From a virus, in IMG/VR virus record IMGVR_UViG_3300030329_005082, positions 114,631-178,630 of that record: DNA of 64,000 bases; one strand, written 5' to 3'. This document shows, piece by piece, positions 9,090 to 38,796 of the stretch. The translations under genes were made by a program, and so were the position numbers. The notes under the pieces were generated by a model that had not been told where the DNA came from, made no database searches, and saw only the letters and a list, made by a program, of their open reading frames with translations. How positions within the stretch are numbered: the first letter of the stretch is position 1; each line of letters starts with the position of its first letter.

Positions 9090-9090
9090 T

Positions 9091-10884
9091 TTAGATCACT
9101 GCTCCTATAATGTCTCTATTTGGCAGTAATACTTCAGCAGCAGCATCTTCTGGGAGTACTAAGAATCTACCATCGTCAGAAAGATTAGAGTCAATATCAA
9201 ATCTATAATTACTATAAACTCCGCCGACATTATTTACAAGCTCTACTTCGGTTGTGTCTACAACCCCAGGAACCTCGTTCAATAGTTTATAAATCTGGGA
9301 AATGTAAATTGCCTCTCCGATGTTAAATTTGATATTGATATATTCGTCTTTTAGTTTTTGTATGCACGCATCAAGCAATTCATAACGATTGACATCTAAT
9401 GCTGGCAAGACTTTGAACTTGATGCCAATATTGATTACTTTGCCGCTCAATACATCAACAGTATCGTTGATCATTCTGTATTTGTTCAGCCAAACTCTTG
9501 TGTTTTCTTTAAGATTTGTATTTGGTTCAATCAAATCGCCGTTAGCATTTTCTGATAGAAGATAAACATTGAGATTTCTCTTTAGGGAATTTACATCACG
9601 AACAACATTGGCTCGCTTAACTTTACCAAACTTTGAAGGCATACGATAAATCAGATTGATATAATCTACGCGAGTTACCGCTCGGTTCTGGGATGCGAAG
9701 GTTCCGAAAGCTCTTTCTCTGATTTCTTCCGCCGTCAAAATACTCGTATCCCCTAATATTGGATTCTCATTTTCTACTTCTATAGAGGTGACAACTCCAT
9801 TAAGTGAATTGAGATCCAACGTTCCCTCGTTTCTAAAAGAAAAACGAGGAGAGATCACTTCACTCAAACCATTGACGGCAACGTTAATTTCGTCCGATGT
9901 GTTTGCGGCGTACTCAATTGTTAGAGTAGTGTCTGTTGGAACAACACCAAACTTATCTGTTTGAATTAAATTTGTAGGGTCAAATGTTTGATCTGTTATA
10001 TGGGTGCGACCATTCACATCCAAAACAACATCGGCTGGATCTGCTACGACATCTGTTGTGATATTGTCTTGGGAACCATACCCAAATTGAATATAAGTGT
10101 CTCCATTTGCTTCAAATTGTGTCACAAACCTACGAGGAACAGGCTTAAGTTTCATAATATAAGGAACAACTTCTCGGTCTGAGGATGTGTTCTGAAATTC
10201 TTTTATAATGACATCCTGTGTGAGGAAATCAACTTCATAATATTCATTCCCTTGACTGTCTTTTACGGAGATAACCTCGCTAATATTTCCCTGATCAATG
10301 TTAATTCTTAGGAATCTCTCATAATCTGTCACTGTTGTTATCTGTTCATACACTTGCCCAGAAACTACTTGTCCAAAAGCCTTAACGGCAAAAAAGGTTG
10401 GATTACCAGTAGAGTCATCAACACGAGCAACAGTTACCTCATTATTAGGATTAGTAAAATCAACATTTTCTGTCAAAGTAAAAGCAGACCCGTTCTTTGA
10501 GGAAATAAGACTACCTCTTTGTAATATTGGAAAATAATCTAAATCAGGTCCACGAGAATTGGGATCAGCAGGGACAATAATATAAAAAGATGCAAGTCCT
10601 GTAGATTTGGCAGCGCCGGGAGTTTTGTACCCTAACGTGTTTGAGAGACGGTTAACATTTTCATAAGTGATGGCGCTATCCAGAAAACTTTCGTTTGCCT
10701 GAAAGTCTGCATAGAAAGACAACTGGTCGCCAACATAGGCTACCATATCCATCATCAATGCACCAAAAGAAGCTTCACTGAAATCCTTAAAGGTCGTGGG
10801 ATAGTACCTTTCAGCATAGTTTACCAAGTCTTGCTTGATACTTTCAAAATCTCTGCTGGTGTAGTTTATCGGTCTTTTTGCCAT
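9091..10884 (-). CDS. baseplate wedge protein, T4 gp6-like
   Basis: This 597-aa protein starts MAKRPINYTSRDFESI and continues with the motif around FGALMMDMVAYVGDQLSFYADFQANE, which is characteristic of gp6-type wedge proteins (Baseplate J-like superfamily). The middle contains the RERAFGTFASQNRAVTRVDYI segment typical of the conserved J-like core. In T4, gp6 dimers bridge neighbouring wedges of the contractile-tail baseplate. The gp25-like gene lies just upstream in the same orientation, which reproduces the T4-type gp25-gp6 pairing. The ATG at 10884 is close behind the upstream gene stop. Confidence in the family is high. Confidence 0.9.
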   Translation of the reverse strand: MAKRPINYTSRDFESIKQDLVNYAERYYPTTFKDFSEASFGALMMDMVAYVGDQLSFYADFQANESFLDSAITYENVNRLSNTLGYKTPGAAKSTGLASFYIIVPADPNSRGPDLDYFPILQRGSLISSKNGSAFTLTENVDFTNPNNEVTVARVDDSTGNPTFFAVKAFGQVVSGQVYEQITTVTDYERFLRINIDQGNISEVISVKDSQGNEYYEVDFLTQDVIIKEFQNTSSDREVVPYIMKLKPVPRRFVTQFEANGDTYIQFGYGSQDNITTDVVADPADVVLDVNGRTHITDQTFDPTNLIQTDKFGVVPTDTTLTIEYAANTSDEINVAVNGLSEVISPRFSFRNEGTLDLNSLNGVVTSIEVENENPILGDTSILTAEEIRERAFGTFASQNRAVTRVDYINLIYRMPSKFGKVKRANVVRDVNSLKRNLNVYLLSENANGDLIEPNTNLKENTRVWLNKYRMINDTVDVLSGKVINIGIKFKVLPALDVNRYELLDACIQKLKDEYINIKFNIGEAIYISQIYKLLNEVPGVVDTTEVELVNNVGGVYSNYRFDIDSNLSDDGRFLVLPEDAAAEVLLPNRDIIGAVI

Positions 10885-10907
10885 AATGTTTGTACTCGCC
10901 TCGTCTT

Positions 10908-11312
10908 TTAACTAGTCATTGTTGATGTTATTATTAGCTGATCTTCCTCATCATATGGTAAGATATTATATGTAATGACAACCCTAACCTCATTAAAACC
11001 CATAGTGGGGTCCTCATCTGATGTTGTAAAGTTGACAGAAACAAGGTTTACCGCTGGAGCATACATGTCTGCTTGTTCTGCCACTCTGGAGGCTATCTCC
11101 TCAAATGTAGATGGTCCAACATTCTCAAATAAAAGGTTATAAATACCTACACCAAAATTAGGAATCATGACTCTTTCGCCAGGTGATGTGAGAACAATGT
11201 TTTTAAAGTTCTGCTTAATCACCTCTTTGAGGGTCTTATTTAGACGATATGGCCCATCCGTCTTGTCGTAAACTAGAGGGACTTTTGGTGATATTCCTTG
11301 TCTCTTTGTCAT
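10908..11312 (-). CDS. baseplate wedge subunit, gp25-like (GPW/gp25 family)
   Basis: This 134-aa protein matches the GPW/gp25 family in length and core motifs: LKEVIKQNFKNIVLTSPGERVMIPNFGVGIYNLLFE, with the conserved PGERxMxPxFGxG segment near residues 43-55. In T4, gp25 is a small wedge component that contacts the sheath and gp6. Its start overlaps the stop of the 1821-aa gene by 4 bp, which suggests coupled translation. The region downstream leads straight into the gp6-like gene. The family has no lytic activity despite the historical lysozyme label. Confidence 0.92.
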   Translation of the reverse strand: MTKRQGISPKVPLVYDKTDGPYRLNKTLKEVIKQNFKNIVLTSPGERVMIPNFGVGIYNLLFENVGPSTFEEIASRVAEQADMYAPAVNLVSVNFTTSDEDPTMGFNEVRVVITYNILPYDEEDQLIITSTMTS

Positions 11313-17706: not shown

Positions 17707-18849
17707 TTACTTCTTTACAAATAGATTGGGGAAAAAATCTGTTTCAGGGTCAGCATGAGTGCCAAATTGTGAAACCTGTCCGCCCGTTTGCCAGGACGGA
17801 TCATTATCATACACTACACCAAAATGTAGATGAGCAGGTCCTGCACCGGAGTCTCCCGATAAAGCTATTTGATCTCCTGCTTTTACTGTTTTTCCTGAAC
17901 CAAACTTGTTAGCAGCTATTACAGAGTCTTTTGTAAGGTGCATATAAAGAGTATAAAAAGTACTATTTGGAGTATCAGCTTTATATGCTGTGTGCTTAAT
18001 GACGGCATAATACCCTGCACCGTGAGTTTCTGGATTTCGCGATTGAGCGGCTGCAATAAGCTCGCCATCCAAAACTGCATAAACTTTTTGTCCAACCCCA
18101 GCCCTTAAGTCTATTCCAGCATGGTTTGCTGAACCTCCTGGGGGTGGGTTTCTTGATCCAAAGGGTGAGGTTATATGCCCTAAAGCTTCTGTGTTTGTAG
18201 TTGGGCGCGCTGTTAAAGGCCCTCTTGGTGAAACTCCTGTAGTTGACTTTGGTATTGACGTCTGTTTTATGGGTCTACCGCGGGAACCTCTGGAAGCTGC
18301 ACATGCCTTTTTGACCGTTGATTTCTTTGCTGATCCACTATTAGGCATTGGAACTTCGCAGTTTTCGGAAGAATCGGTCCAATCAGGGCTATTATTAATT
18401 ATTTTAATAATTGTCGCGCCGATTTCGGCAGTAAAACAAGTACTAGGGTTGTTGATTCTTATTTGTACTTTAGCACCAGCAACAAGTTCTGTTCCTCCTA
18501 AAGACTCATCAATATCGCAAGTGATTTGGGGTAAATCAACTGCATTATCTTTAGCACTCAGAGGCTTAGGACAAATATAACTTCTAGGATCTTCTTCAAC
18601 CCTTACTTTATATTTTACATGTTTAAACTTATCTGATTGGAAAAATTCAAAGTTACCAATCTTTTCGTACCAAGTGGGTAAACGGAGAGCACCAGTCAAC
18701 ACCTTAGCTGTAACAACTTGGTTTTCTTTATATGTGCTCTTTCTTGCGATAAGTTTTCGGTTATTTTGCTTAAGCAAACCATCAACGCCATCAGAAGGAC
18801 GCCAAGAAGTCTGAGTCAAATCAACTGGTTTATTATCAGAATCTGCCAT
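17707..18849 (-). CDS. virion-associated M23 peptidoglycan endopeptidase
   Basis: This 380-aa protein has a C-terminal M23 (LytM/lysostaphin) domain, residues about 222-375. The zinc and catalytic motifs are complete: HxxxD at H243-D247 (NHAGID) and HxH at H340-H342 (AHLHFG). Family members cleave peptide cross-links in peptidoglycan. The N-terminal part (1-220) is beta-rich with a Cys pair and a Ser/Thr/Pro linker, and may attach the enzyme to the tail. There is no signal peptide, which fits a tail-carried lysin used during entry and not an exported host enzyme. It lies inside the baseplate block. Confidence 0.88.
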   Translation of the reverse strand: MADSDNKPVDLTQTSWRPSDGVDGLLKQNNRKLIARKSTYKENQVVTAKVLTGALRLPTWYEKIGNFEFFQSDKFKHVKYKVRVEEDPRSYICPKPLSAKDNAVDLPQITCDIDESLGGTELVAGAKVQIRINNPSTCFTAEIGATIIKIINNSPDWTDSSENCEVPMPNSGSAKKSTVKKACAASRGSRGRPIKQTSIPKSTTGVSPRGPLTARPTTNTEALGHITSPFGSRNPPPGGSANHAGIDLRAGVGQKVYAVLDGELIAAAQSRNPETHGAGYYAVIKHTAYKADTPNSTFYTLYMHLTKDSVIAANKFGSGKTVKAGDQIALSGDSGAGPAHLHFGVVYDNDPSWQTGGQVSQFGTHADPETDFFPNLFVKK

Positions 18850-21295: not shown

Positions 21296-22009
21296 TTATA
21301 AAGGTAATCCTTTTTTAAATCTTTCTTCCCATAAAATCAAATCTCTTTCAAAATCTGACTTGGTATGTACTGCTTTTCCCTTGCGAGCTAGCCATTTAGC
21401 GGAATACATGGGAAAATGATTTGCATAATAATCACAAGTTTCTTCCCACTGGTCTATTGAGATGGATTTACCATAATGTCTCACAGACCCTTCGTCTAGG
21501 ATCCTAAACGATTTTAGACTACATTCCCTTTGGTCTAGTCCGTGGTACCCTGTAGTTGCTCCGTACCTAAAAGCAAACAGGATTGATCTATATTCTGGAC
21601 CTATCCATTTTCTTTCTGTATATTTCTTGTCTATATCTTCTTCTGTGATATAGAAATCAAATAATCTCATTCTTACAGCGTCTAAATTGTTATTTAGTTT
21701 TCCCCAATCAAACTCTATACGCTCATCGGCATCCATATAAACAAACCAATCATTTTCTGATAGGTGTTTTGATGCTTCTGTATAGACGGCATGTCTGTTT
21801 TGAAATTCTGCACGGGCTCGGAATTGATCCCAGGACTGACCTTCAATTACCGACGTCACTATTGGGTGGTTTTTACAAATCTCAACTGTGTTGTCTACTG
21901 AAAAATCATCATATACAAAAACTTGTTCGCAAAACTCTGCCATATGATCCAGGGTTTCCTGCATAATCTCTGATTCGTTCCGAACTCTTGTCAACCCGAC
22001 GATTTTCAT
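21296..22009 (-). CDS. glycosyltransferase family 2
   Basis: This 237-aa protein has the GT-A fold signature: N-terminal VGLTRVRNE, VFVYDDFSVDNT (nucleotide-binding aspartates) and WFVYMDADERIEFDW (DxD-like metal site near residues 90-95). Its length suits a short GT2. It overlaps the next glycosyltransferase by 4 bp and belongs to a five-gene glycosyltransferase run. It presumably transfers a sugar onto a phage- or host-derived glycan, or onto modified DNA. The acceptor is unknown. Confidence 0.82.
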   Translation of the reverse strand: MKIVGLTRVRNESEIMQETLDHMAEFCEQVFVYDDFSVDNTVEICKNHPIVTSVIEGQSWDQFRARAEFQNRHAVYTEASKHLSENDWFVYMDADERIEFDWGKLNNNLDAVRMRLFDFYITEEDIDKKYTERKWIGPEYRSILFAFRYGATTGYHGLDQRECSLKSFRILDEGSVRHYGKSISIDQWEETCDYYANHFPMYSAKWLARKGKAVHTKSDFERDLILWEERFKKGLPL

Positions 22010-22887
22010 AATTTTAGATACTCCTGTACTTGTTTTTGAATGTTTAGATTTTCTAAAGCATATTCTCTATTTTTGTCGCCCTGAATATAGTCATACTTGT
22101 TTATCTCATAAATGAGACTCTCTTTTGTCACGGGCTGCTGTATCTTTCTTCCCGAACAATTATTTTCTAAAAAACCATCAATGTTGTGAGATGTTACGAT
22201 GCCGTCCATAAGTCCCGGTTGATATGGTCTTTGGTCGGCAATTAGAACGGGCTTTCCGCACGCCATTCCTTCATACGCCCCGCGACCGAGGCTTACTACC
22301 AGATCTGCTGTTTTTATCACATTTTGGATGTCAAGTCGTGGTGAGGTGAATTTATTGTTATACTCTACCGTTATTCCTAATTCAGACCCAATCTCTAATA
22401 ACATCTGGTTAAATTGATCCGATTGCGATAAACTAAACATTTTGTTAATATTTTTTGAAGGACTCTGGTCAGGGCAAAAAACTTCGCAATTTATACCGTT
22501 GTGTATCAGAGTTGAGTCAATACCTTTAGAAGATAAATAATCCTGAACTTCTTTAGAAATAGAAACATGTCGTATTCCTGGCACAGGCTGCTCAAGATGT
22601 GGAAAAATACCATGACATGTTTGAATTATATTTGACCCTGGAAATAAATTCAAAACACCATTCACGATAGTTGTGTGGTTTAGAAATGCTACATCATAAG
22701 AATTAGACATCTTATTAATAGAACACCCAAGGTTGGATTTTATCATCTCAGACATAACACCCTCTTGCATGGTGAGAATATCTACATGGTGTCCGAGGCG
22801 AACTAGTTCTTGAGCCATCGTATAAATAAATGTTTCACTACCGCCTAAAGTATGTAAGTGATTTTGTCCTAATAAAATTTTCTTCAT
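22006..22887 (-). CDS. glycosyltransferase, GT4-like (GT-B fold)
   Basis: I place the start at the ATG at 22887, which overlaps the upstream stop as TAATG. The protein is then 293 aa and begins MKKILLGQNHLHTLGGSETF, the expected N-terminus of GT4 enzymes with the Gly-rich GGSE loop. The C-terminal nucleotide-sugar half shows ADLVVSLGRGAYEGMACGKPVLIAD, the conserved EGMACGKPV motif. A longer frame upstream (to 22926) would run into the preceding gene and is less likely. The substrate is unknown. Confidence 0.8.
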   Translation of the reverse strand: MKKILLGQNHLHTLGGSETFIYTMAQELVRLGHHVDILTMQEGVMSEMIKSNLGCSINKMSNSYDVAFLNHTTIVNGVLNLFPGSNIIQTCHGIFPHLEQPVPGIRHVSISKEVQDYLSSKGIDSTLIHNGINCEVFCPDQSPSKNINKMFSLSQSDQFNQMLLEIGSELGITVEYNNKFTSPRLDIQNVIKTADLVVSLGRGAYEGMACGKPVLIADQRPYQPGLMDGIVTSHNIDGFLENNCSGRKIQQPVTKESLIYEINKYDYIQGDKNREYALENLNIQKQVQEYLKL

Positions 22888-24113
22888 TACGAGGTTACTT
22901 GTCCGGAAAGAAAGTAAAAGTTCCACAACATAGAGTATAAAACCTCATCGGAGATTAGCTTGTCTCTGGTATTACTGTGAGTATGTTTTAGAGACCCTTT
23001 TGTGTCATCTAGTTTTGATGATAGGACTAAAGATTCTGCATGATACAAATATACATCAGCACCAGCATAATAAACCTTGTGACCTAATTGAGAAACTCTT
23101 AGGCAAAGATCTGCATCTTGATAACTGCAAGCAAGGGTTTGACAGAAGCCACCAATCTCTACAAATGTTTCAAGATCAATAATTTGAAATGCACCTGTAA
23201 CAAACTTTGTTTCTCTGTTGGTATTAACCTTGTGGTTATTTTTGTCGCTAAATCTTCCATAATGAACCGGAGACATAAAAATATGTGCTTGATCTCTCAA
23301 GAATGGTGTAGTCACTACATAAGTTCCGCCACCATACTGAACTTTGCCGAAAACACCACGCTCACGAACGGATTCCTCGGAGGTTTGGAAATCTTTTGCT
23401 AATTCTCTGTAGGTTTTATCTTCATCTATAAGATGGCAAAATCCCGTCTCAGGATATAATAATTTTGCACCAGTTATTTTAGTGCCTGTCTTTTTTGCTT
23501 TAGCGTGGGTTTTCAACAGTGTTGGTACAGCTTTTTTATTAGGAGCCCATAGATCAGCATTCCACAAAATAATATCTTCATGCCCCAGGCGATGGTATAA
23601 GAAAGCCCCTATATTATTGAGCATAGAAAAGTTAAAAACATCCGACGCATAATCAACCCTAATATAAACTGCGCCGTGGCGGTTAGCAAGTTGTTCTATT
23701 TCTTCTGGTTCTTCGGATCTGTCGTCAATAACTGTAACATTGGCAACATTGTTTACACCCATCTCCTCAATATTTTGCAAAGTAAATTCTAAGAGATTTA
23801 CATTATCTTTAATAGGAAGCAAGAGTCCTGGCTTATCAGGATCTATATTCTTAAGGTTTTGATAAGTTACTTTATATTCTACATTCTTGCCGGCAAACGG
23901 GTAATTGCCAACTGAATTAGATTCTAGAATTTCAACATAATTGGATATCCTGGGGTATACGTCTCTCTTTGAATGGACTATTGAAATCTCATCCTGCTGG
24001 AATTCTACTTGAATTTTATTGACTTCTGATAGCGCCTCTTTATTCAATCCCTCATTTTGGGAAAAAATATCACAGTTCAAGTATTTGTGCGTCGTCGGTT
24101 TCTCCCGAAGCAT
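22887..24113 (-). CDS. glycosyltransferase family 2-like protein
   Basis: This 408-aa protein has a GT-A core from about residue 90: LLLPIKDNVNLLEFTLQNI, then VTVIDDRSEEPEE, then IILWNADLWAP as a DxD-like position. A late segment, SYQDADLCLRVSQLGHKVYYAGADVYLYH, matches the catalytic end of GT2 enzymes. The N-terminal 85 residues are an extra unassigned extension. It overlaps the upstream GT4-like gene by 44 bp. It is probably a glycan-chain enzyme working with its neighbours. Confidence 0.78.
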   Translation of the reverse strand: MLREKPTTHKYLNCDIFSQNEGLNKEALSEVNKIQVEFQQDEISIVHSKRDVYPRISNYVEILESNSVGNYPFAGKNVEYKVTYQNLKNIDPDKPGLLLPIKDNVNLLEFTLQNIEEMGVNNVANVTVIDDRSEEPEEIEQLANRHGAVYIRVDYASDVFNFSMLNNIGAFLYHRLGHEDIILWNADLWAPNKKAVPTLLKTHAKAKKTGTKITGAKLLYPETGFCHLIDEDKTYRELAKDFQTSEESVRERGVFGKVQYGGGTYVVTTPFLRDQAHIFMSPVHYGRFSDKNNHKVNTNRETKFVTGAFQIIDLETFVEIGGFCQTLACSYQDADLCLRVSQLGHKVYYAGADVYLYHAESLVLSSKLDDTKGSLKHTHSNTRDKLISDEVLYSMLWNFYFLSGQVTS

Positions 24114-25344
24114 TTAGACTCCCCATCTGATTTATAACTCTATAATACATCTCGTTGATATTTTCTTGAGAGAACTTATTGCGTATATGTTCTCCCAATA
24201 ATGCTGCATCTTTTTTATTAGTAATAGGAGATGTCACTAAGTTTCTAAGGTTTTTCTGTAATGATTCATTTTTAGGATAACACCATTCACATTCTGGAGT
24301 AATCAATCCTGGCATAAGGTGATCTTGTTTTACTTTCTCAATATCATACGATGTTTTTAAAAACAAGTTCTTTCTTTTTGTTTTTCCGCTTTTTTCATTT
24401 GTAACCGGGGCATGTAAAAAGTCCATATGACCCGACCATGAAGGAGCAATGACTGGAATGTCGGCACATACGGCATTGAAAATTGGTATACCGAAACCTT
24501 CGCCGTGAGCATGTGAAACATAACCTGTAATAACATCCGGATCATAAAGAGAGAACACTTCCTCTTGAGAAAGGTTGCCATGAATTAGATGAACTTTACA
24601 CTTGTGCTCTGGTGATTTGAAATTCAAGTACTTCTTCAACAAGTCCTTGGTCATCTTTTCATCTATTCGGCTATTGTTCCTCATATAAGTCTTTAGGATA
24701 AATGAGGCATCTTCATCATCATTGAATTCATCCAAGAACGAACCAAGCATTTCAAAGATGTTTTTACGTGGAGCAAGCTGCGACACGCACAAGAAATTTT
24801 TGCTCGTAGTGATGGCTTCGTAACCGGAAAATTTTTCTCTTTCTTGAGGAAGGTTGTTATAGAAAGGAATAACCTCAATAGGCGTCCTAATTTTTTCATT
24901 TGTTTGGCTGTCAACGGCTTTCAAGAGGTTTTCTCTAGCATGGTTGGAAACCACAAGAATCTTTTGAACCATATTACAGTTAGCAATCCACTCTTTAGGA
25001 GCAGCCACGGTTTCCAAAGCGGCAGTCACCCCGATGTCATAGTTGGTAACTTTGTGCCATTCGTTGGGAGGTCGTACTTGAAAGCAGCAGTCAAAGCCGT
25101 CAGGCATAGAAGTGCCGGTAGACTTCAGAAACTTAAGATACTGCTGGGTATTCTCAATGAGGGGTCCGTACTTGCTGGTATAATCTAGGTTACGGGATGC
25201 TTCAGCCCACTGGAGATCAACCAAGTGTACTATATGTTTTTGTGGGCTGGATAAGAGTGCGTCTGCTATTACCCGTGCATGATCGCTGTAACCGCTAACG
25301 TTGCAGAAAGATCCGATGATTAATATTTTCTTTTGTTCCGTCAT
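24070..25344 (-). CDS. glycosyltransferase, GT4-like
   Basis: This 424-aa GT-B enzyme has the N-terminal motif ILIIGSFCNVSGYSDHARVIADAL and a central FLCVSQLAPRKNIFEML, the start of the second Rossmann domain. It also has YVSHAHGEGFGIPIFNAVCADIPVIAP, the conserved E(x7)E donor-binding region. It overlaps the adjacent GT4-like gene by 4 bp and the GT2-like gene by 44 bp. The donor and acceptor are unknown. Confidence 0.82.
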   Translation of the reverse strand: MTEQKKILIIGSFCNVSGYSDHARVIADALLSSPQKHIVHLVDLQWAEASRNLDYTSKYGPLIENTQQYLKFLKSTGTSMPDGFDCCFQVRPPNEWHKVTNYDIGVTAALETVAAPKEWIANCNMVQKILVVSNHARENLLKAVDSQTNEKIRTPIEVIPFYNNLPQEREKFSGYEAITTSKNFLCVSQLAPRKNIFEMLGSFLDEFNDDEDASFILKTYMRNNSRIDEKMTKDLLKKYLNFKSPEHKCKVHLIHGNLSQEEVFSLYDPDVITGYVSHAHGEGFGIPIFNAVCADIPVIAPSWSGHMDFLHAPVTNEKSGKTKRKNLFLKTSYDIEKVKQDHLMPGLITPECEWCYPKNESLQKNLRNLVTSPITNKKDAALLGEHIRNKFSQENINEMYYRVINQMGSLNASGETDDAQILEL

Positions 25345-26591
25345 AATTCAGTCATTCTCCATGCTTGGTAGTTCTTACGATTTCCCCACGATCCGTACTT
25401 TTCATGAATCTCTTGAAGAAGATTAACCCAAGAAGTGCCGTAGTTGTCAAAGTTGTAGTTCTTCATGACATGTTCACGTCCTTGTTGACCTAGTTCTTCC
25501 CTTTTTTTCGGAGACATTGCGTAAATCTCATTCAATGCGGAAATGAAATCTTCCTTTGAAACACGATCTTCATAAATGTAAGGAACTTGTTGGGAGCCGA
25601 TGAGGGCTTTGGATGCTGGCTTTAAGCCGATTCCAAACCAGTTTTCCCCATCAGTTAGCTGCTCTTGTAGTCCGCCAGTAAGAGTAGCAATAATCGGTGT
25701 CTCGCTGGCCAATGATTCTAGGGTTGATAATCCGAACCCTTCAGCATCGGCAATATTGACTGTACAATCAGCAATGCCATAAAGCTTTGCTAGATCTTCT
25801 GCCGGCAAACCTTCCTTAGAGAAGATAACCTCTGAGTTGACAAGTCCATAATGTTCTGCTAAGTACTCAAGTGGTTGTCCATGCGGATCATCTGGTTTTG
25901 TGTGCATAATCAAACAGGCGCTGTCTTGATCTATGTGATCCTGCTTCAGGAATTCACTAAACCAATGGATGAGTGTCCCGCTCTGCTTCCTTCTAGCATT
26001 TCTATTATTCCAGAAAACAATAAATTTGTCTTTTAGAGCTTTGTTGTTTTTTAATACGTCTGCTCTTTCTGATGCCGATATTTTCCGGAAAATGTCTACT
26101 GGCACAGCGTGAGGCAAATAAACCTCGTGAACATCCGGAGATACGTTTTGAACAATATCACTGGTGACTTTTGAAATTGTCACTATTACATCATTTGAAT
26201 CGTAAAACTTCTTATTATACATGGGCAGCGGATAATTGTCCCATACATGATAATAAATCATGGGGATATTTTGGCGAATATCTTCCTCAAACATCCACAA
26301 CCACTCATAATATCTTGGATCAGTCATAAACCAAAGCATATCTGGCTTAACTTGATTGATTAATCCTAGAATTTGCTGCTTATCGCCGTAACCATCTACA
26401 GGAAGAATGTGCCAATGCTCTTCCTTCTTCATCAAATTGTAATTCGGATGTTTAATAGCTCCACCAAGTGAAAATACTTCAAACTTTCCGGACTTCAGAA
26501 GAGCCTCAATCATATACTTTGTTTGTGTACCAACACCTGATGGCAGTAAAGGGTGGTCACTAATCGTCATGACCTTGATTCTATCTGACAA
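25341..26591 (-). CDS. glycosyltransferase, GT4-like
   Basis: This 416-aa protein has N-terminal VMTISDHPLLPSGVGTQTKYMIEALL and a C-terminal ADCTVNIADAEGFGLSTLESLASETPIIA, the EGFGLSTLE donor-site motif of GT4 enzymes. It is the first translated of the five glycosyltransferases and overlaps the next by 4 bp. It resembles the neighbouring 424-aa enzyme in layout, which suggests related but diverged activities on one glycan. Confidence 0.84.
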   Translation of the reverse strand: MSDRIKVMTISDHPLLPSGVGTQTKYMIEALLKSGKFEVFSLGGAIKHPNYNLMKKEEHWHILPVDGYGDKQQILGLINQVKPDMLWFMTDPRYYEWLWMFEEDIRQNIPMIYYHVWDNYPLPMYNKKFYDSNDVIVTISKVTSDIVQNVSPDVHEVYLPHAVPVDIFRKISASERADVLKNNKALKDKFIVFWNNRNARRKQSGTLIHWFSEFLKQDHIDQDSACLIMHTKPDDPHGQPLEYLAEHYGLVNSEVIFSKEGLPAEDLAKLYGIADCTVNIADAEGFGLSTLESLASETPIIATLTGGLQEQLTDGENWFGIGLKPASKALIGSQQVPYIYEDRVSKEDFISALNEIYAMSPKKREELGQQGREHVMKNYNFDNYGTSWVNLLQEIHEKYGSWGNRKNYQAWRMTEL

Positions 26592-29410: not shown

Positions 29411-29454
29411 TTTTTGACCTCCTTGTCTATAATAATAAATAGTTGTTTAGACAA

Positions 29455-29478
29455 AGAAAAAGCCGCCCGAAGGCGGCT
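29455..29478 (-). terminator. intrinsic terminator of the tmRNA
   Basis: On the minus strand, a 7-bp G/C-rich stem (AGCCGCC / GGCGGCT) with a short TTCG loop follows the tmRNA CCA end immediately. A T-rich tract TTTTTCTTTG comes next. This is a classic rho-independent terminator, positioned to end the tmRNA transcript. Confidence 0.85.
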
Positions 29479-29800
29479 GGTGGAGGTAGGGAGAATTGAA
29501 CTCCCGTCTTGTCTAGTTCCATAAAAAGGTCATTTACAAGGTTAGTAGTGCTTTTATCGTCGGCAAAACACTTGACTAGATCATTTTACTTCTGGTGAAA
29601 ATAATCAAAAACACTTAGGAATTCAAATATGGCTTTCTGTTTATTGGCTGCCACCGCCTCAAACATCGTCAGGTTATTAAGCTGCGAGTGCTAGTTGAAA
29701 ATCGTCGTTTGCGATTATTAGATAAGCGTTTTTAGTGAGCCACGCTTCCCTCACCCTTGCACCTTTTTTACTTTCCTATCAATCGATCCCGGTTACCCCC
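29478..29800 (-). ncRNA. ssrA: tmRNA (transfer-messenger RNA)
   Basis: The 323-nt RNA has the tRNA-like ends of tmRNA: a 5' GGGGGTA acceptor strand pairing with TACCTCC before ACCA, and a T-arm GGGAG-TTCAATT-CTCCC. The 5' domain carries the conserved CGGGATCGAT and GGTGCAAG-type segments. An internal mRNA-like part encodes the degradation tag. tmRNA with SmpB rescues stalled ribosomes and tags proteins for ClpXP; no smpB is visible here, so host SmpB would be needed. A sigma70-like promoter lies upstream and a terminator directly follows. Confidence 0.93.
29677..29712 (-). other. tmRNA tag-peptide reading frame
   Basis: Within the tmRNA, the resume codon GCA begins the frame ANDDFQLALAA followed by TAA. 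The terminal LAA and the AND start match the bacterial proteolysis-tag pattern read by ClpX. The tag interior (DDFQLA) can be compared with host tags to place the host. Confidence 0.88.
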
Positions 29801-30748: not shown

Positions 30749-33700
30749 TTATCTTCGTCTTTGTCGTTTAGGACGATTTACTTTGGGTTTCGTGCTTTTT
30801 TTGCGTCTTTTTTTCGGGAATGAAGCAGGGGCATACCCTGGAGATCCGAGAGTTGAACCAGGCGCAAAACCATTTCCTCCGCCCTCAACAGCACCGCCGG
30901 CCATGGTTGCCATTTCCTCTATAGCAGCATCTATTTCAGAATCTATCTGATCAGTTGGTTTAAAGATCCTCCAGATCTCTTCGCCGTCAACACTGTCAGG
31001 CATATAAGATAAAAACTCATCTTTTTTATTCAAATTGATAAAGTCGCGAATATCTTCAGCACTAAACACCTGTCCTTCTGAGGAGGTTACGGGTTCTTCT
31101 TCAATTTCTTCTACTGATATGCCGGGGTTGTGTCTTTCTGCATATGATTTGGCATTTTGGAAACGGGTGTCACCCTCATCCTTACTACTCTTGATTAATA
31201 ATATTGTGTCTTGTGGTCTTGATTTGACAGGATCAGCCAAAAATTCATATACTGTTGTAACGGGACTCCTGTAGTCTGCAATCTCTACGCTTATTTTGGG
31301 AGACGCATCAGAAGATGATAAGAACTTAGACCATATTTCAAGAGATTGTTCAGCAGACACTTCTGGTTTATCTACAGGGCTAATCAAAACCATCACATTA
31401 TCTACATCTGATCTCTTTGCTACTTGATTTACAAATTCGTAATGACCTTTGTGTGGCGGCTTGAACTTGCCAGGAAATAGAGCAATTCTTTTACCTTCTT
31501 CTTCAACAAGTGGTTGAACAGATTCATTGCGTTGACCTGGCGCATCAGAGTCTTGAGAGATCTGTTGAGACATCTCGTCAGCAACAACTTTAGATTCTTC
31601 AATTGCTTTTTGCCCGGCACCAATAGCCTGGCTTCTATCTTGATAAGTAAAATAATCATTTACATTTTCAGACAATTTAGATGTTGCTTCAAAAACCCTC
31701 TGCAAATTATCAGATAAGAATTCCATATATTGTTCAGCAACATCAACAACTCTTTCTGTGGTAATTGGCAGCGTACCTAATGTTTCATAATCTAAGCTAC
31801 TAGAAACTGCCTTCAATTGTTGAGGACTGATAGCCCACTGGGTGCCGCCTGCACGCTCTAATAACAACCCCTCTGAGATGAGTCTTTTATTTTCTTCTAC
31901 AGAATAAATCCTGTGGGCTGCTAGCTGTTGCGGCTCTATATCGGTACCATCTGGTAGCTCATCAGAGACAGTGACGGTTTCATCGGGTGCAGGTGGTGTC
32001 TTCTTCCTGTTTCTATACCCTTTTGTCATTTGTAAGAGTTTATATTTTTCCGGCCAATTGGAATCACCTGTAAGACTGTTGAGTTTCTTGATAGAACTGG
32101 ACGGGGTGCGAGCAATTTCATAAGGAAGTGCAAATAATTGGGCGTCCTTGGTTGTACCACCTTTTGCAGATGCAATAATTGCATTTATAAAGTTATCTCT
32201 TGTGAAAGTGAATTTTTCTAAAGCAATATTATCGCCATCTTTTCTGGCAACGATATATACCATTTGTCCAAACTCTTCTAAAGAATCAACAAGATTGGTA
32301 TAACTTCCTTCAATCTTAGTTTTTTGATTTAATAATTTGAGACTGATAGGAACTGGCTGTGTGTCTTCAAGTTCTGAAAAGGCAATAAGATCTTGGATAG
32401 GTAAATTCCCTTTTTCACTTACTTCGGCTTCTTGTTTTCCACGAAACAATGCTGACAAGAACCCTTCAAAGACAAACCCAGCAGAGGCAGAATTAAAGCT
32501 CCTGATGACTGCTGATAAAGATTCTAACAAAATAAGAGTGCTGATAATTCTTCGTGGCGAGCGAATACCGCCGCGAGGATTATTAATACTATCATTTAAA
32601 AACTGAAGCTTTTCTTGGATAGTTGCGCCACCACCAACAGTGTCAAAGATCTTTTGAATTTGCTTTCTTTCCATAGACTCAGGGTCACCCCAAGCCTCAG
32701 TTGGTACAAATTTAGGAAGTGAGAGAACAAATTGTTTTGCTTTTTCCCTCTTAATATTTCCCTCATCTTCTGTTAGGATATTTCTAGGACGGGAAATACT
32801 TTCATTTGCAACGGCTGGGGAAGTTCTTCCACCAAATTTGAACATTCCAAGAATCTGATTTAGAGGTGCAAAATTTCCAGAAAACTTATAAGTGTGACCA
32901 TCATAATCAAAAACAACAGCCTCAACAGGAGTGGTTATTTGTGAAAAGTCCTTAATCTTATTCAGGTGCCTTTGCATCACCTCCATGGCAGCCGGGTTTT
33001 CTGGACCCATTGCTGTCAATTCTCTGACTGCTGTTGCTAATTCATCTCTTAGGCGAATTACTTCTTTATCTGTGTCTGCAATGAAAACACTATCAAGTCC
33101 CTTTAATAACTCTACAGCAAAATCATGAATAACTATTTCAAGTGGTTCAATCGCTTGTTGTAACAAGGATTTTTTACTGTTGATTACATTATTTAGATCC
33201 TGAAGATCTTGTGGGTTCAGACCTTTCTTAAGGGCTCTTAATCCAATATTACCGGGTAATTTTAAGAGATATTTTACGATCCCATCTTTCATATTATCTG
33301 GTAATTCTGTATCAAGACCGTGAAACAAACGAGAATATAAGTAATCAGTCATAGTGGAATCGTCGGATAATCCATTTTGAGATATTTCACGATTTATCTT
33401 CTCTATAGAAGACTTAAGGACTTCTTCATCTTCCATTTTTTGAAGTTGTATAATAGCCTTTCTGGCAAGATTGAACCTATTGTCAGATAGTTGATCTTGC
33501 ATTCTTTCTAAAGAGTTATCAATTATTTCCAATGATCCGTTTGGAATAGGACGCCGTTCTCCGGTTTCTTTATCAAAACGAAAATGACCCACTCCATGTA
33601 TCTTGAGAGTCTTATTATCATATTTTATAACATTTACAGACCCTGGGTCGTTAGAGTCGCCTTCGGTGCCAGGGTCCATAATCTCAGCGTTATACCAAAT

Positions 33701-34051
33701 ATTTGCGTCAGATCCAAAGACTTTTTCTTTTTCCTCATCAGACAGCGCCTCAACAGCTTTTTCAAATGCTGCAAATCCGCCTGTAAAAGCCTGAGTCAAA
33801 CCACCTCGTCCTGCAAATTTTGTAGCTAGACCTTCAGCATCTAACCCTCCTGACATAAGGTTCCCCTTATTTCTGGCTCCTTTTGCTTTTCCTTCCGGAA
33901 TAGAATAAGAAAGAAAAAGATTTTGCCCGTCTACCTTCTCTTCGGCAGTAAGTTCTGCGTCAGCAGCAGCCTTCAGAATCTCTTTCATTTTTGCAAAAGT
34001 TAGACTACGGTTATCGTAGAGGTGGTCCATGTGACCTGCAACGCCACCCAT
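30749..34051 (-). CDS. 1100-aa protein: ligase-like adenylation, PD-(D/E)XK-like and HIGH-type nucleotidyltransferase segments
   Basis: Three enzyme-like regions can be read. Residues about 30-165 contain EKVDGQNLFLSY and a later WYNAEIMDPG, like the KxDG adenylation motifs of RNA/DNA ligases. Around residues 525-585, GFVFEGFLSALF, then IQDLIAF, then ISLKLLNQ resemble an E-D-SxK PD-(D/E)XK nuclease core. Around residues 865-1010, IALFPGKFKPPHKGHYEFVNQVAKR is the nucleotide-binding (HxGH) motif of cytidylyltransferase/NMNAT-like enzymes. A basic tail (KKRRKKSTKPK and on) ends the protein. The start at 34051 has a GAGGAG site. Similar adenylyltransferase-like segments occur in marine phage proteins, but I do not recognise this whole arrangement. 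Confidence 0.72.
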   Translation of the reverse strand: MGGVAGHMDHLYDNRSLTFAKMKEILKAAADAELTAEEKVDGQNLFLSYSIPEGKAKGARNKGNLMSGGLDAEGLATKFAGRGGLTQAFTGGFAAFEKAVEALSDEEKEKVFGSDANIWYNAEIMDPGTEGDSNDPGSVNVIKYDNKTLKIHGVGHFRFDKETGERRPIPNGSLEIIDNSLERMQDQLSDNRFNLARKAIIQLQKMEDEEVLKSSIEKINREISQNGLSDDSTMTDYLYSRLFHGLDTELPDNMKDGIVKYLLKLPGNIGLRALKKGLNPQDLQDLNNVINSKKSLLQQAIEPLEIVIHDFAVELLKGLDSVFIADTDKEVIRLRDELATAVRELTAMGPENPAAMEVMQRHLNKIKDFSQITTPVEAVVFDYDGHTYKFSGNFAPLNQILGMFKFGGRTSPAVANESISRPRNILTEDEGNIKREKAKQFVLSLPKFVPTEAWGDPESMERKQIQKIFDTVGGGATIQEKLQFLNDSINNPRGGIRSPRRIISTLILLESLSAVIRSFNSASAGFVFEGFLSALFRGKQEAEVSEKGNLPIQDLIAFSELEDTQPVPISLKLLNQKTKIEGSYTNLVDSLEEFGQMVYIVARKDGDNIALEKFTFTRDNFINAIIASAKGGTTKDAQLFALPYEIARTPSSSIKKLNSLTGDSNWPEKYKLLQMTKGYRNRKKTPPAPDETVTVSDELPDGTDIEPQQLAAHRIYSVEENKRLISEGLLLERAGGTQWAISPQQLKAVSSSLDYETLGTLPITTERVVDVAEQYMEFLSDNLQRVFEATSKLSENVNDYFTYQDRSQAIGAGQKAIEESKVVADEMSQQISQDSDAPGQRNESVQPLVEEEGKRIALFPGKFKPPHKGHYEFVNQVAKRSDVDNVMVLISPVDKPEVSAEQSLEIWSKFLSSSDASPKISVEIADYRSPVTTVYEFLADPVKSRPQDTILLIKSSKDEGDTRFQNAKSYAERHNPGISVEEIEEEPVTSSEGQVFSAEDIRDFINLNKKDEFLSYMPDSVDGEEIWRIFKPTDQIDSEIDAAIEEMATMAGGAVEGGGNGFAPGSTLGSPGYAPASFPKKRRKKSTKPKVNRPKRQRRR

Positions 34052-34052
34052 A

Positions 34053-34292
34053 TTATTTCTCCTCGTTCAGAAGTTTCAATTGCTCTTCTAAAGAACTTAC
34101 ACGCTCGTTTAGAGATCTTACATGGCGTTTAATAGAGCGCAGGTGCTCTTTGGCTACCGAGAGACGATTCGTGTCTCTTTTGTTTGTAACTCTCACGCTC
34201 GTAATAATATCATATAACGCCTGTACAGACGCAGCGGGATCTATTTTTAGTTCTTCCTTTAATAGAAGAGCTTTAGTCAGCTTTCTTAGCAC
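34053..34292 (-). CDS. small coiled-coil protein
   Basis: This 79-aa protein is almost entirely helical, with a heptad-like C-terminal half (HLRSIKRHVRSLNERVSSLEEQLKLLNEEK). No enzyme motif is seen. It ends 2 bp before the 1100-aa gene and its start overlaps the preceding basic protein gene by 20 bp. It is probably a small structural or partner protein. Confidence 0.6.
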   Translation of the reverse strand: MLRKLTKALLLKEELKIDPAASVQALYDIITSVRVTNKRDTNRLSVAKEHLRSIKRHVRSLNERVSSLEEQLKLLNEEK

Positions 34293-34494
34293 TTGACTTC
34301 TTCTTGGCTACTTTTTTAGCAGGAGCCTTCTTGACTTTGGGTGCTTCTTCAGCAGCAGCTTCAACTTCAGCTTCTGGCTCAACAACGGGCTCTGCTACTG
34401 GAGCAGGTGCTGGTTCTGCTACTGGAGCAGGTGCTTTACCTTCAGCAGCTAGGGCTGCGGCGCGACGACGTTTTCTTAATCCTGGGCTTGCCAT
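34273..34494 (-). CDS. Ala/Pro/Lys-rich basic protein (H1-like)
   Basis: This 73-aa low-complexity protein has a basic N-terminus (LRKRRRAA), a middle of Ala-Pro-Val-Glu repeats (APAPVAEP) and a Lys-rich tail (KKAPAKKVAKKKSSAKKA) resembling the histone H1/HU-tail type. Such proteins bind nucleic acid. In a phage it could be a head-internal DNA-condensing protein (inference). It has a strong AGGAGG-type site upstream. Confidence 0.6.
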   Translation of the reverse strand: MASPGLRKRRRAAALAAEGKAPAPVAEPAPAPVAEPVVEPEAEVEAAAEEAPKVKKAPAKKVAKKKSSAKKAD

Positions 34495-34563
34495 TTTAAT
34501 ATCCTCCTTGGGGAAAATGAAACGAATATGTAATATAAATAGTTACTAAATTCTTTCTATGTC

Positions 34564-35829: not shown

Positions 35830-36720
35830 TCAACGAAAAGTGTTTTCAAGCTTTAGGTTCATTTCTTCAATCCATATTCTGTCAACCTTGGTGTTGACAT
35901 TGGGTGTTTTGTTTGCTTTTTCCCAAAGCTGCATTTCTCCTTTAGCGATTGCCTTCTTGAGAAATACTTTAATAGCGACAAGTGGAGAAGATAATCCAAC
36001 ATTTTCAATAACAGAATATCCTGCAAATATAACCCCAACCAGTTCGTTGTTTTTGTTTATTACAGGAGATCCACTTGAGCCAGGTTTAGTTGGAATAGTG
36101 TAAATAGAGTATCCACGATTATGGTAACCGGAAAAAATACCTTTAAAAATCAACACAGATCCAGGCCAAAATAATCCGTGCGGTGCTGCCATATTTATAA
36201 CAGTCTCTCCTTTTTTTGGTTCTTCACTTGCTACCTTTAAAACAGGGTGTTCTGTATAAATGTCTGAGACTTGTAATAGGCATAAATCAAACCTGTCGTT
36301 TATATCAACAACTCGGGCTTTATATTCTGTTCCCTCCAGATCTACTACAGTAAAAGTAGACCCCTTGTTTATTACCTTGTATCCATCAATATTTTGAACT
36401 TTAGGTATCTTATTCTCGCAGGAATGTCCGGCAGTCATAACATAAGAAATGCTCTGAGAAACCTCACTGCGGAAAACAAATGCACCAGAAGATACATACC
36501 TCATCATTGCTTTTTGGCAAGCTATTTTTTCGGTTTTTGGATCTTTTCCGCAGCCCTCAAGCTCAATTGAGTGTTTGATTTGTGTGAATGTGTGTCTTGG
36601 TAAAATCTCTTTTTTATCTTCTTGATTTAAATTAACTGTAGCACATCCACTGACACAACTAGACAAACTAAATAACGAAATTATAAGAAACTTGACGTAA
36701 ATTGGTGTTTTTTTCTGCAT
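35830..36720 (-). CDS. trypsin-like (HtrA/S1-type) serine protease, lipoprotein
   Basis: This 296-aa protein has the catalytic triad of S1 proteases: H99 in TAGHSC, D145 in DRFDLCLLQ, and S216 in GSSGSPV. The N-terminus is a lipoprotein signal with two possible lipoboxes (C22 in LSSC, C26 in VSGC). It is therefore predicted to be exported and lipid-anchored facing the periplasm. No PDZ domain is seen. It is transcribed away from the plus-strand envelope genes, across a shared promoter region. A lipid-anchored exported protease is unusual in a phage. Confidence 0.85.
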   Translation of the reverse strand: MQKKTPIYVKFLIISLFSLSSCVSGCATVNLNQEDKKEILPRHTFTQIKHSIELEGCGKDPKTEKIACQKAMMRYVSSGAFVFRSEVSQSISYVMTAGHSCENKIPKVQNIDGYKVINKGSTFTVVDLEGTEYKARVVDINDRFDLCLLQVSDIYTEHPVLKVASEEPKKGETVINMAAPHGLFWPGSVLIFKGIFSGYHNRGYSIYTIPTKPGSSGSPVINKNNELVGVIFAGYSVIENVGLSSPLVAIKVFLKKAIAKGEMQLWEKANKTPNVNTKVDRIWIEEMNLKLENTFR

Positions 36721-36801
36721 AGCATAGTAACTAGATTGAAAGGATACTATTTATCCACAGTAAATCAACACAAATCATTTACTAAAGGAATGGAATTTCA
36801 A
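36721..36801. promoter_or_regulatory. divergent intergenic region between protease and plus-strand envelope operon
   Basis: About 80 bp separate the two gene sets that diverge here, so both promoters must lie in or near it. On the minus strand the box GATAAATAG, about 25 nt before the protease ATG, resembles a T4-type late promoter (TATAAATA). No clear -35/-10 pair was found on the plus strand. Confidence 0.35.
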
Positions 36802-37056
36802 ATGATGAGCACCATTATGTTATCTGGTCTTTTGCTTTTTTCTAGTCAAAGTCTTGAATTTCCTAAAGTTTGGCAGAAAATACAAGGACAATGGTCCTAT
36901 GTTGGTCAAGTTAAGGAAAAAACACAAATTTTGATTTGGATAGAAAAGAAAACAAAAACCCCAAACAATAAGATACTTACTAAAGAGATAAAGAAGATGC
37001 CATTTATCACTTTATCACCAACGGGAGAGGTGTTGAATCTAGATCCACTCCCATAA
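36802..37056 (+). CDS. small exported protein, plus-strand cassette gene 1
   Basis: I choose the ATG at 36802, preceded by GGAA at suitable spacing, giving 84 aa. It starts MMSTIMLSGLLLFSSQSLEF, a plausible signal peptide cut after SQS. The frame extends upstream to 36736, but that would bury the signal peptide. The mature part is short and basic, with no recognised domain. It opens the three-gene plus-strand operon, 13 bp before the next gene. Confidence 0.55.
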   Translation: MMSTIMLSGLLLFSSQSLEFPKVWQKIQGQWSYVGQVKEKTQILIWIEKKTKTPNNKILTKEIKKMPFITLSPTGEVLNLDPLP

Positions 37057-37069
37057 GGAGCGGTCTTAT

Positions 37070-37540
37070 ATGTTCAAACTTCTAACAAGAAGAACTACCC
37101 TTTTAGGTATCTTAGCCTTTACGGCTGCTGTTTCACTACATTATCAGATTAAAGCAAACAGTCTATATCAAACAGTCTTCAAAAAAGAATCCACTTTTTA
37201 CACACCCGGTCAACACGGAAACTGTAAATGGGTGGTTCATATAAGTAATAAAATTACAACAGAGCCAGGCGATAATTCTGCGGCTCAAATAGGCATTCCA
37301 GAAGTAAGCAAAGATGGTTATATTGCCGGGATACTTCAAAATGGTCCTGGGAACTCTTTATTATTTGCCTTTAAGCTTCCCACCCAGTCCGGTGATTCTC
37401 CTCCATTTATCATGACTGCTACATACAATCTGGAAGATTTACCACTAAAGCAGATAAAATTTAGGGTATTCAATAGTACAGCTATGACAATGATTTTATA
37501 TTCTACATACGAAAGTTGTGTTGAGGCTACAATGAGATGA
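37070..37540 (+). CDS. exported protein of unknown function, cassette gene 2
   Basis: This 156-aa protein has an N-terminal signal or anchor segment (TLLGILAFTAAVSLHYQIKA) and a beta-rich mature part with two Cys that could form a disulfide (C50-region and C151-region). AAGGAGCGG precedes its ATG. It overlaps the lipoprotein gene by 4 bp. Predicted periplasmic; no family recognised. Confidence 0.62.
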   Translation: MFKLLTRRTTLLGILAFTAAVSLHYQIKANSLYQTVFKKESTFYTPGQHGNCKWVVHISNKITTEPGDNSAAQIGIPEVSKDGYIAGILQNGPGNSLLFAFKLPTQSGDSPPFIMTATYNLEDLPLKQIKFRVFNSTAMTMILYSTYESCVEATMR

Positions 37541-38796
37541 GGCAGATCTCTATAATTCTGTCTTGTTTAATACTTGCATCATGCCAAGCTTGTTTAGATG
37601 ATGACCAATTAGTCGCCCTAGAGTGTGCGCCAGGAACTATTCAGGTGTGCGACCATAACGGACAAATACTCACCTCTCTTAATCACAGAGACCCTCCAGA
37701 AAAAGCAGGCGTTTGCAGGTATGGAGCCAGAACTTGTACATTTGATGGTTGGACAGAGTGTGTTGGTGCCATAGGTCCATCGGAAGAGGTTTGTGATGGG
37801 TTAGATAATGACTGTAATTTGCTAGTGGATGATAATTTTCCAGAACAACACCAATTATGTGGCTTTGTTGAGGGTGCCGATTATGGTGTAGGGGTCTGTA
37901 CACCAGGCGTCATGAAATGTGATAATGGATCTCTTTATTGTGATGGTCACGTTGGTCCATCCGAAGAGGTATGTGACGGATTTGATAACAACTGCGACGG
38001 CTCTATAGATGAAGGTGTTGCTAATACAACTGCTATTGTTTGTTATGATGGCCCTGACGGGACGATGGCAATTGGTGAATGCCGGGCTGGTGTTCGTTAT
38101 TGTACTGATGGTGGTTTTGATGGACCCTGCGATGGGCAGATTTTACCAGTACAGGAGATATGTGACAATCTTGACAACGATTGTGATGGAGAGGTTGATG
38201 AAGGGTTTGATACCCGTGGAGTAGATTTAGTTTTTATAATTGATATTTCTGGCTCGTTTGATGATGAAATAGACTCTATGATAGAGGGCATTACTCCGCT
38301 TTTAGATGACCCGATCACTAGTAATTTTCGCTTTGGTTTAGCTGTGATAGGTAGACAGAACCTTGGGAATTATGAACCCCCATTGAACCGACATTCTGAA
38401 ATGGTGACAGATTTTGTTCCTGCTGATGAATTTCTGCAATACCTTGAAGGGATGCGTCTTTTAGAGGATGGCGGCATAGAACCATCTATAGATGTAACTC
38501 TGTGGTCAATGGAAGGATTATATCCTTTTTCGTGGGATTTAGGGAATCAAAAAGTAATAATCTTAATGACTGATGAAGTCGCGCAAACGATTACAGGAAG
38601 AGAAGTGACCCAAGTGAATGATCATGCTGTGCAGAATGGTTTTGAAATATTTGTTTTTGCTCTCCCTGAACATCATCATTCGTTCTTAGGAATGGTTCGT
38701 GATGACCAAGATAGATTATATACTCCCGCTGTCAACTCACAAACAGTTTTCCAGCAGATTAGACAAATATTTGAAGATTTATGTATCGGTGGTTAA
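37537..38796 (+). CDS. lipoprotein with MopE-type Cys/Asp repeats and VWA domain
   Basis: This 419-aa protein begins with a lipoprotein signal (lipobox LASC, C16). Residues 20-225 are Cys-rich and carry three MopE-type putative metal-binding repeats: EVCDGLDNDCN (84-94), EVCDGFDNNCDGSIDEG (144-160) and EICDNLDNDCDGEVDEG (207-223). A VWA domain follows, with an intact MIDAS start D236-x-S238-x-S240 (IIDISGS). Such repeat proteins are typical of Myxococcota and related delta-proteobacteria, where they are exported. Here the protein is predicted to be on the cell surface or in the periplasm and to bind a partner through metal. Very atypical for a phage. Confidence 0.87.
   Translation: MRQISIILSCLILASCQACLDDDQLVALECAPGTIQVCDHNGQILTSLNHRDPPEKAGVCRYGARTCTFDGWTECVGAIGPSEEVCDGLDNDCNLLVDDNFPEQHQLCGFVEGADYGVGVCTPGVMKCDNGSLYCDGHVGPSEEVCDGFDNNCDGSIDEGVANTTAIVCYDGPDGTMAIGECRAGVRYCTDGGFDGPCDGQILPVQEICDNLDNDCDGEVDEGFDTRGVDLVFIIDISGSFDDEIDSMIEGITPLLDDPITSNFRFGLAVIGRQNLGNYEPPLNRHSEMVTDFVPADEFLQYLEGMRLLEDGGIEPSIDVTLWSMEGLYPFSWDLGNQKVIILMTDEVAQTITGREVTQVNDHAVQNGFEIFVFALPEHHHSFLGMVRDDQDRLYTPAVNSQTVFQQIRQIFEDLCIGG

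Follow-up and report, generated by a model that had tools for sequence, protein, structure and literature searches.

CglB, a gliding motility protein of Myxococcus xanthus, is an outer-membrane lipoprotein with a von Willebrand factor type A (VWA) domain and is described as a cell-surface adhesin (PMC12288465, PMC4488436). Here we analyze a four-gene cassette that includes a VWA-bearing lipoprotein, similar to CglB by that description; CglB is a host motility protein, whereas the lipoprotein of the cassette is encoded by a phage. The cassette is located in a window of 64,000 nucleotides, which spans bases 114631-178630 of IMG/VR record IMGVR_UViG_3300030329_005082 (178,630 bases in total). It comprises gene P, coding for a lipoprotein serine protease, on the minus strand and genes A, B, and C on the plus strand, with C coding for the VWA lipoprotein. 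C shares Cys/Asp repeats, scoring above the Pfam cut-off, with the MopE (PF11617) proteins of Myxococcota and other groups. Llp of phage T5 is a phage-encoded superinfection-exclusion lipoprotein. Like Llp-type proteins, the cassette lipoproteins are directed to the host envelope, in their case by prediction; unlike them, the cassette has four genes, including a protease and a large VWA lipoprotein. The HtrA-type protease domain of P and an RseP equivalog in the same phage resemble the DegS/RseP (sigma-E) cascade, with the differences that P is a lipoprotein in which no PDZ domain was detected and that no RseA or sigma factor was noted, neither being specifically searched for. Literature searches returned no paper combining MopE, phage, and von Willebrand, and no description of the cassette, as judged from titles and abstract openings. 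We propose, with a probability of about 0.45, that the cassette is a resident envelope-remodelling module of large phages, produced in the course of infection, whose likeliest benefit is superinfection exclusion or a change in adhesion.

The four open reading frames (ORFs) lie where the first-pass annotation placed them, with P divergent from A-B-C. Its claim that A, B, and C are the only plus-strand genes in the window holds as far as checked: all other plus-strand ORFs of at least 100 amino acids overlap minus-strand ORFs, and the final 2 kb are less clear. Its description of the four products as an exported set is also borne out as a prediction from motifs and hydrophobicity, with lipoboxes in P and C (strict and relaxed patterns) and hydrophobic N-termini in A and B.

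P (35830..36720, minus strand, 296 amino acids) has an HtrA/Do-type catalytic domain that matches Pfam Trypsin_2 with an E value of 1.1e-15. The nearest solved structures by sequence profile are the HtrA protease 1l1j, followed by Spl-type serine proteases, DegP, and DegQ. The 39 distinct sequences compared, including that of the window, all have His99 and Asp145, and 38 have Ser216, the remaining one having a gap; this gap probably belongs to the P of contig L133, which is split into two ORFs. P has the features of a chymotrypsin-fold domain with a His-Asp-Ser triad. It falls far below the cut-offs of the full-length HtrA (TIGR02037, 32.2 versus 416.2 bits) and DegS (14.8 versus 422.95 bits) models, and no PDZ domain is matched in the Pfam scan. 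The lipobox of P fits the strict pattern in 56 of 65 sequences and the relaxed pattern in 45 of 48. Three partial matches to P are found in isolate-phage records.

A (36802..37056, plus strand) codes for 84 amino acids with a short N-terminus that is hydrophobic in 43 of 48 sequences, and has no family match among Pfam and NCBI models. The ATG at 36802 is kept in nine aligned sequences, window included; therefore, A probably does not start at the TTG listed at 36736. Codon identity at identical residues is higher in A (0.61) than in P (0.46), B (0.42), and C (0.50), as calculated from 66 pairs from 12 contigs. This excess of synonymous conservation could result from lysine-rich composition or from an overlapping nucleic-acid signal.

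B (37070..37540, plus strand, 156 amino acids) is likewise without a family match, and without a match in isolate-phage records. Its N-terminus is hydrophobic in 48 of 48 sequences. The predicted structure, of high confidence (mean predicted local distance difference test score (pLDDT) 90, predicted template modelling score (pTM) 0.75), contains one long N-terminal helix, which may serve as a membrane anchor, and a small β-barrel-like domain with two invariant cysteines. No known fold could be assigned to B. The best Foldseek E value is 0.07, and the best match in the PDB obtained with VIA is an earthworm haemoglobin chain (Z 8.1, 100 residues, 3.3 Å) with many unrelated barrels close behind. 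A Cap15 barrel scores Z 6.5, not above its neighbours in the ranking.

C (37537..38796, plus strand) overlaps B by 4 nucleotides and codes for a lipoprotein of 419 amino acids, with three MopE-type Cys/Asp repeats and a C-terminal VWA domain, as the first-pass annotation had recognized. PF11617 (Cu-binding_MopE) is matched with an E value of 5.5e-9 and 36.5 bits over three stretches, which passes the gathering score of 27; single repeats in the six-frame scan are just below it (26.3 and 24.5 bits). The VWA family PF00092 is matched with 23.1 bits in the protein scan, just below the cut-off of 23.8, and with 24.5 bits in the six-frame scan, above it; the relative of C in contig L173 reaches 24.6 bits. 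The best model of C is of medium quality (mean pLDDT 76.7, pTM 0.51). In this model the VWA region has pLDDT of 74-92, except for 61-68 near residues 271-290 and 69 at the end, and it matches integrin and VWF A domains in Foldseek with E values from 2.1e-9. By sequence, C has no match in the PDB at E up to 0.1.

A complete metal-ion-dependent adhesion site (MIDAS) consists of DxSxS, T, and D. In C, residues D236, S238, S240, E315, D346, and E347 are invariant among the 39 distinct sequences. The motif of C is thus MIDAS-like: D-x-S-x-S and the later Asp are present in 39 of 39, and invariant Glu315 appears to stand where the Thr is expected, a position judged by eye. The lipobox of C fits the strict pattern in 43 of 49 sequences and the relaxed pattern in 47 of 48.

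The divergent intergenic region between P and A (36721..36801) contains a conserved block, ACTA(T/A)TTATCC...AGTAAATC, which is kept in most relatives of background i (defined below). The A-B-C operon is preceded by ACTATTTAT, which is also found in the right orientation upstream of two more window genes, PhoH (site 29435-29443) and a small gene at 34273-34494 (site 34535-34543). The three sites compare with 1.13 expected, and 12 of 100 shuffles reach three; this count is not significant, so it is the placement alone that is suggestive. A longer form of ACTATTTAT is likewise not significant in count, and sigma-70 promoters are not in excess in the window (12 found, 12.7 expected).

Scans of IMG/VR confirmed at least 42 loci for C, 23 for B, and 48 for P, which are lower bounds because the scans start from short peptide patterns. 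According to profiles run on the pooled loci and the window, 49 contigs have C, 48 have A and B, and 65 have P; these include near-duplicates, with 39 contigs distinct by C. The complete set is found in 48 of the 49 C-bearing contigs, window included; gene order does not vary, and A-B-C always run opposite to P. In the remaining contig, L005, a longer and remote C stands without P, A, or B. In the fetched loci of sixteen more contigs, P is the only cassette gene seen; six of these loci are shorter than 8 kb. A seventeenth contig, L178, breaks off at P. At one P-bearing locus in which A, B, and C are not detected, L179, a TonB_C-domain protein (L179:9980-11610, E 5.5e-22) is encoded just downstream of P and a transglycosylase is encoded nearby.

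For convenience, the genomic backgrounds of the cassette are numbered i to iv. In background i (35 contigs, window included), the cassette is at one fixed place with PhoH, the neighbouring genes N and N2, and fibre-like genes. In background ii (nine contigs), it is flanked by a block of DnaE, an RseP-like protein, and a protein with one transmembrane (TM) helix, and by a block of a GroES-like protein, RNR, and DnaB; in L133 and L122, contig ends remove part of these flanks. Background iii (three contigs) has PhoH, N, N2, and the cassette, and the flanking genes F2 and D2 are not detected. In background iv (one contig, L173), an RseP-like gene abuts C. The names DnaE, RNR, DnaB, and ThyX are read by eye, and the GroES-like protein is below the NCBI cut-offs. 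Two other large DnaE phages encode long lipoprotein-like proteins with MopE-type repeats and, by eye, a VWA-like C-terminal part (L247:1592-3799, 735 amino acids; L005:9722-11803, 693 amino acids), between ThyX and DnaE, apparently at the same place as the cassette. These proteins are 26% identical in the best segment; that of L005 has five MopE stretches in Pfam and no VWA match at E 0.1. Their apparent shared position suggests that such a gene is old in these phages.

Compared with the nearest relative, the ratio of nonsynonymous to synonymous substitution rates (dN/dS) is 0.047 for P, 0.14 for A, 0.03 for B, and 0.08 for C; 12 gene comparisons with three relatives were made, five of which gave no value because synonymous sites are saturated. 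The cassette is under purifying selection, and its recurrence in 48 contigs together with dN/dS of 0.03-0.14 indicates that it is not a chance arrangement.

The cassette consists of two evolutionary parts. Among 39 distinct cassettes, P, A, and B agree closely in their pairwise protein distances (r 0.92-0.95), whereas distances of the parts of C correlate with those of P, A, and B at r 0.12-0.32. Near-duplicates were dropped beforehand (48 to 39 for all backgrounds, 34 to 29 for background i), and the longer ORF piece of the split P of L133 was used. Within background i (29 distinct of the 34 contigs with every flanking gene), P, A, and B correlate at 0.92-0.94 and hardly with PhoH (for P, r 0.13, p 0.06). 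The two parts of C correlate with PhoH at 0.44 and 0.47 (VWA part, p 0.0005), about the level of PhoH with N2 (0.47), and with P at 0.12-0.18 (repeat part, p 0.016; VWA part, p 0.08). Individual contig pairs give the same picture. Contigs 3300025759_011127 and 3300032087_005679, both of background i, are 96% identical in C, 87% in PhoH, and 63% in N, versus 42% in P, 29% in A, and 33% in B. The former contig and 3300017909_002082 of background ii are 87% identical in C, versus 35% in P, 30% in A, and 30% in B. The reverse case is that of the window and 3300023192_004449, which are 72% identical in P and 52% in C. On the distance correlations and the contig pairs, we reject a single evolutionary unit of C and P-A-B. 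As far as the sequences tell, the likeliest explanation is that P, A, and B function together, with C being swapped independently of them, and that phages of the different backgrounds encounter one another inside shared cells.

The C family of phages is 45-85% identical to the C of the window (34% for L005) and has a constant P-A-B neighbourhood, unlike the cellular MopE proteins, from which it is remote. In genome_contigs, at least 544 candidate stretches were found, at least 388 of which encode a relative of C. Among the best 80 of the 388 (79 loci), the identity to C is 26-59% in the best segment and mostly restricted to the repeats, so the search for a donor that the first-pass annotation had suggested points to no recent one; a few relatives (e.g., L024 and L039) align into the VWA region. 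By title, counted by eye, 59 of the 79 loci belong to Myxococcota/Deltaproteobacteria groups and 20 to others, including Woesearchaeota and Patescibacteria. None of 50,697 isolate-phage records matches C. The view of MopE proteins as a myxobacterial hallmark atypical of phages is thus upheld for the majority, with a quarter of the loci elsewhere. Eleven genomes chosen from the cellular loci all match the C profile, mostly in repeats, with up to 189 matches in one. B was found in 0 of 5 cellular genomes and, in the phylum to which one Sandaracinaceae genome belongs, in 0 of 235; these searches had no positive control and are weak negatives. Codon usage and GC content at third codon positions of P, A, B, and C are within the range of other window genes, so the suggested codon comparison does not mark the cassette as foreign. 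Repeats found in Myxococcota and others, ordinary codons, remote relatives, and the missing B together indicate that the family is shared and that the cassette looks phage-resident.

In the reading that we favour, lipid-anchored, HtrA-like P, membrane-anchored B with its periplasmic barrel, and the small exported protein A would form one co-evolving periplasmic proteolysis unit, in which P would contact A and B. C would be lipid-anchored, probably in the outer membrane, where a stalk of Cys/Asp-rich MopE repeats would present the MIDAS-type VWA domain to a cell-surface ligand. Made during infection, these proteins would alter surface binding of the infected cell, leading to superinfection exclusion or to adhesion or aggregation. 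Immunity and exclusion regions typically show exchange of blocks at a fixed locus. The first-pass annotation had proposed an acquired unit that remodels the host surface; remodelling is still the likeliest role, recent acquisition is disfavoured, and a single evolutionary unit is rejected.

Several observations weigh against this reading. Backbone genes also correlate weakly with each other (PhoH with N2 0.47, with F2 0.36, with D2 0.22), and C correlates with N2 at only 0.18-0.21 and with F2 or D2 at 0.03-0.05. The whole locus is therefore mosaic, with the tight P-A-B block standing out, and recombination alone may explain the pattern of P-A-B versus C. Because of its higher conservation relative to P-A-B, C yields distances with less signal, and the contig pairs in the correlations are not independent. 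The best model of C has the pTM of 0.51 given above, and the other four models average pLDDT of 59-66. Among the PADLOC defence models, A, B, and C have no match at E up to 0.1, and P has weak matches of the protease domain alone.

A different role is suggested by a second set of genes in the same record. An M50 protein at record 87813-88556 (E 9e-58; ORF L200:5763-6584, record 87762-88583, where L200 denotes record 82000-94000) passes the RseP equivalog model TIGR00054 with 187.1 bits (NCBIfam cut-off 147.55). The RseP gene is overlapped by a gene for a one-TM coiled-coil protein of 156 amino acids (L200:6545-7015, record 88544-89014). RseP matches among isolate-phage records are remote (24 records, none reaching 60% identity), and the label of at least one of these records is that of a Salmonella enterica strain. 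In background ii, homologues of this pair directly precede P, the M50 protein in eight of nine contigs (the ninth ends at its position) and the one-TM protein in all nine, with a segment around the TM helix that is well conserved by eye. Of 11 records with the cassette that were examined, six encode M50, among them every one of the six that reach 127 kb. The one-TM protein was found in five of the 10 such records searched, two of them truncated by a contig end. Neither protein is present in any of four records whose fetched loci show P alone. This association, which is not proof, suggests a site-1/site-2 proteolysis pathway: C would sense the surface, P would act as a DegS-like site-1 protease on B or on the separate 156-residue one-helix protein, and RseP as the site-2 protease would release a signal to the cytoplasm, for instance for lysis timing. 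We consider such phage-encoded regulated intramembrane proteolysis rather doubtful. P lacks a detected PDZ domain and is far under the DegS and HtrA cut-offs, and a sigma/anti-sigma partner was not identified, no search having been aimed at one. RseP may act in signal-peptide clearance or have no connection with the cassette, its pair is ~60 kb from the cassette in the record of the window, and five cassette-bearing records (98-125 kb, possibly fragments) are without M50. A variant in which a swappable, integrin-like C senses the surface and P with A and B, followed by phage RseP, cuts a phage membrane protein is unlikely; such outside-in signalling would, for example, time lysis or answer superinfection.

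A lysis or egress function, with P and C weakening the outer membrane late in infection and B and A in the inner membrane, would suit three observations: both membranes could be spanned by the exported set, genes B and C share 4 nucleotides, and ACTATTTAT stands before PhoH and the small gene as well as before A. We regard this as distinctly unlikely, as o-spanins are small proteins, unlike the 419-residue VWA/MopE protein C, an M23 peptidase with endolysin-type matches is encoded apart from the cassette (17707-18849), and strictly kept catalytic and MIDAS-like residues exceed what disruption needs. That the products are carried on the particle for adsorption is improbable: neighbouring proteins are fibre-like by eye and one weakly matches a minor head protein family, but the host envelope is the destination suggested by the lipoboxes and the hydrophobic N-terminal helices, and the background-ii cassette sits among genes read as replication genes. 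Least credible of all is recent capture of a myxobacterial surface operon, which the abundance of MopE-repeat proteins in Myxococcota might suggest. It is disfavoured by ordinary codon usage, remote cellular identity, and B in 0 of 235 genomes, by longer C-type genes at the apparent same place in L005 and L247, and by the fixed position in 35 contigs, which is largely the distribution that the first-pass annotation had named as speaking against acquisition.

The window also codes for a PhoH-like protein, a baseplate wedge protein, glycosyltransferases, the M23 peptidase, and tRNAs, indicating a tailed phage. A cluster of several glycosyltransferase genes (21296-26591) near tail genes is another possible surface-modifying set. 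A long neighbouring ORF (30749-34051) has three remote isolate-phage matches, one annotated as cytidylyltransferase-like. A transfer-messenger RNA (tmRNA) at 29478-29800 on the minus strand encodes the proteolysis tag ANDDFQLALAA. Phage tmRNAs are present in 10 of 16 loci scanned (L002, L003, L004, L006, L110, L114, L119, L140, L177, and L179), and their tags differ (ANDDFQLALAA, ANDDFNMEMAA, ANDDFEMEMAA, ANDNFNLEMAA, ANDDFQLAQAA, and others, with C-termini ALAA, AQAA, or EMAA). The tag was also tried as a pointer to the host: it is similar, not equal, to tags in 29 of 30 loci (ARAGORN, 57 genomes searched), which is not decisive. Elsewhere in the record, L200 contains another small lipoprotein-like ORF (L200:358-813, 151 amino acids) and about 11 adjacent ORFs (4646-5634 and 7046-10957) that share tag-like N-terminal or near-N-terminal sequences of the types KxLLTEWRKFLxE or MKITKSxLxxIIKEE; similar N-termini occur in L122, L145, and L173. 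They recall the capsid-targeting sequence of internal head proteins, and by this analogy the tagged ORFs may code for packaged, injected proteins.

To our knowledge, phage-encoded envelope functions are mostly single small proteins. A conserved four-gene protease/VWA module in several backgrounds would be evidence of an elaborate periplasmic and surface programme in some large phages, and the near-identical C genes in different backgrounds suggest that those phages meet in the same hosts.

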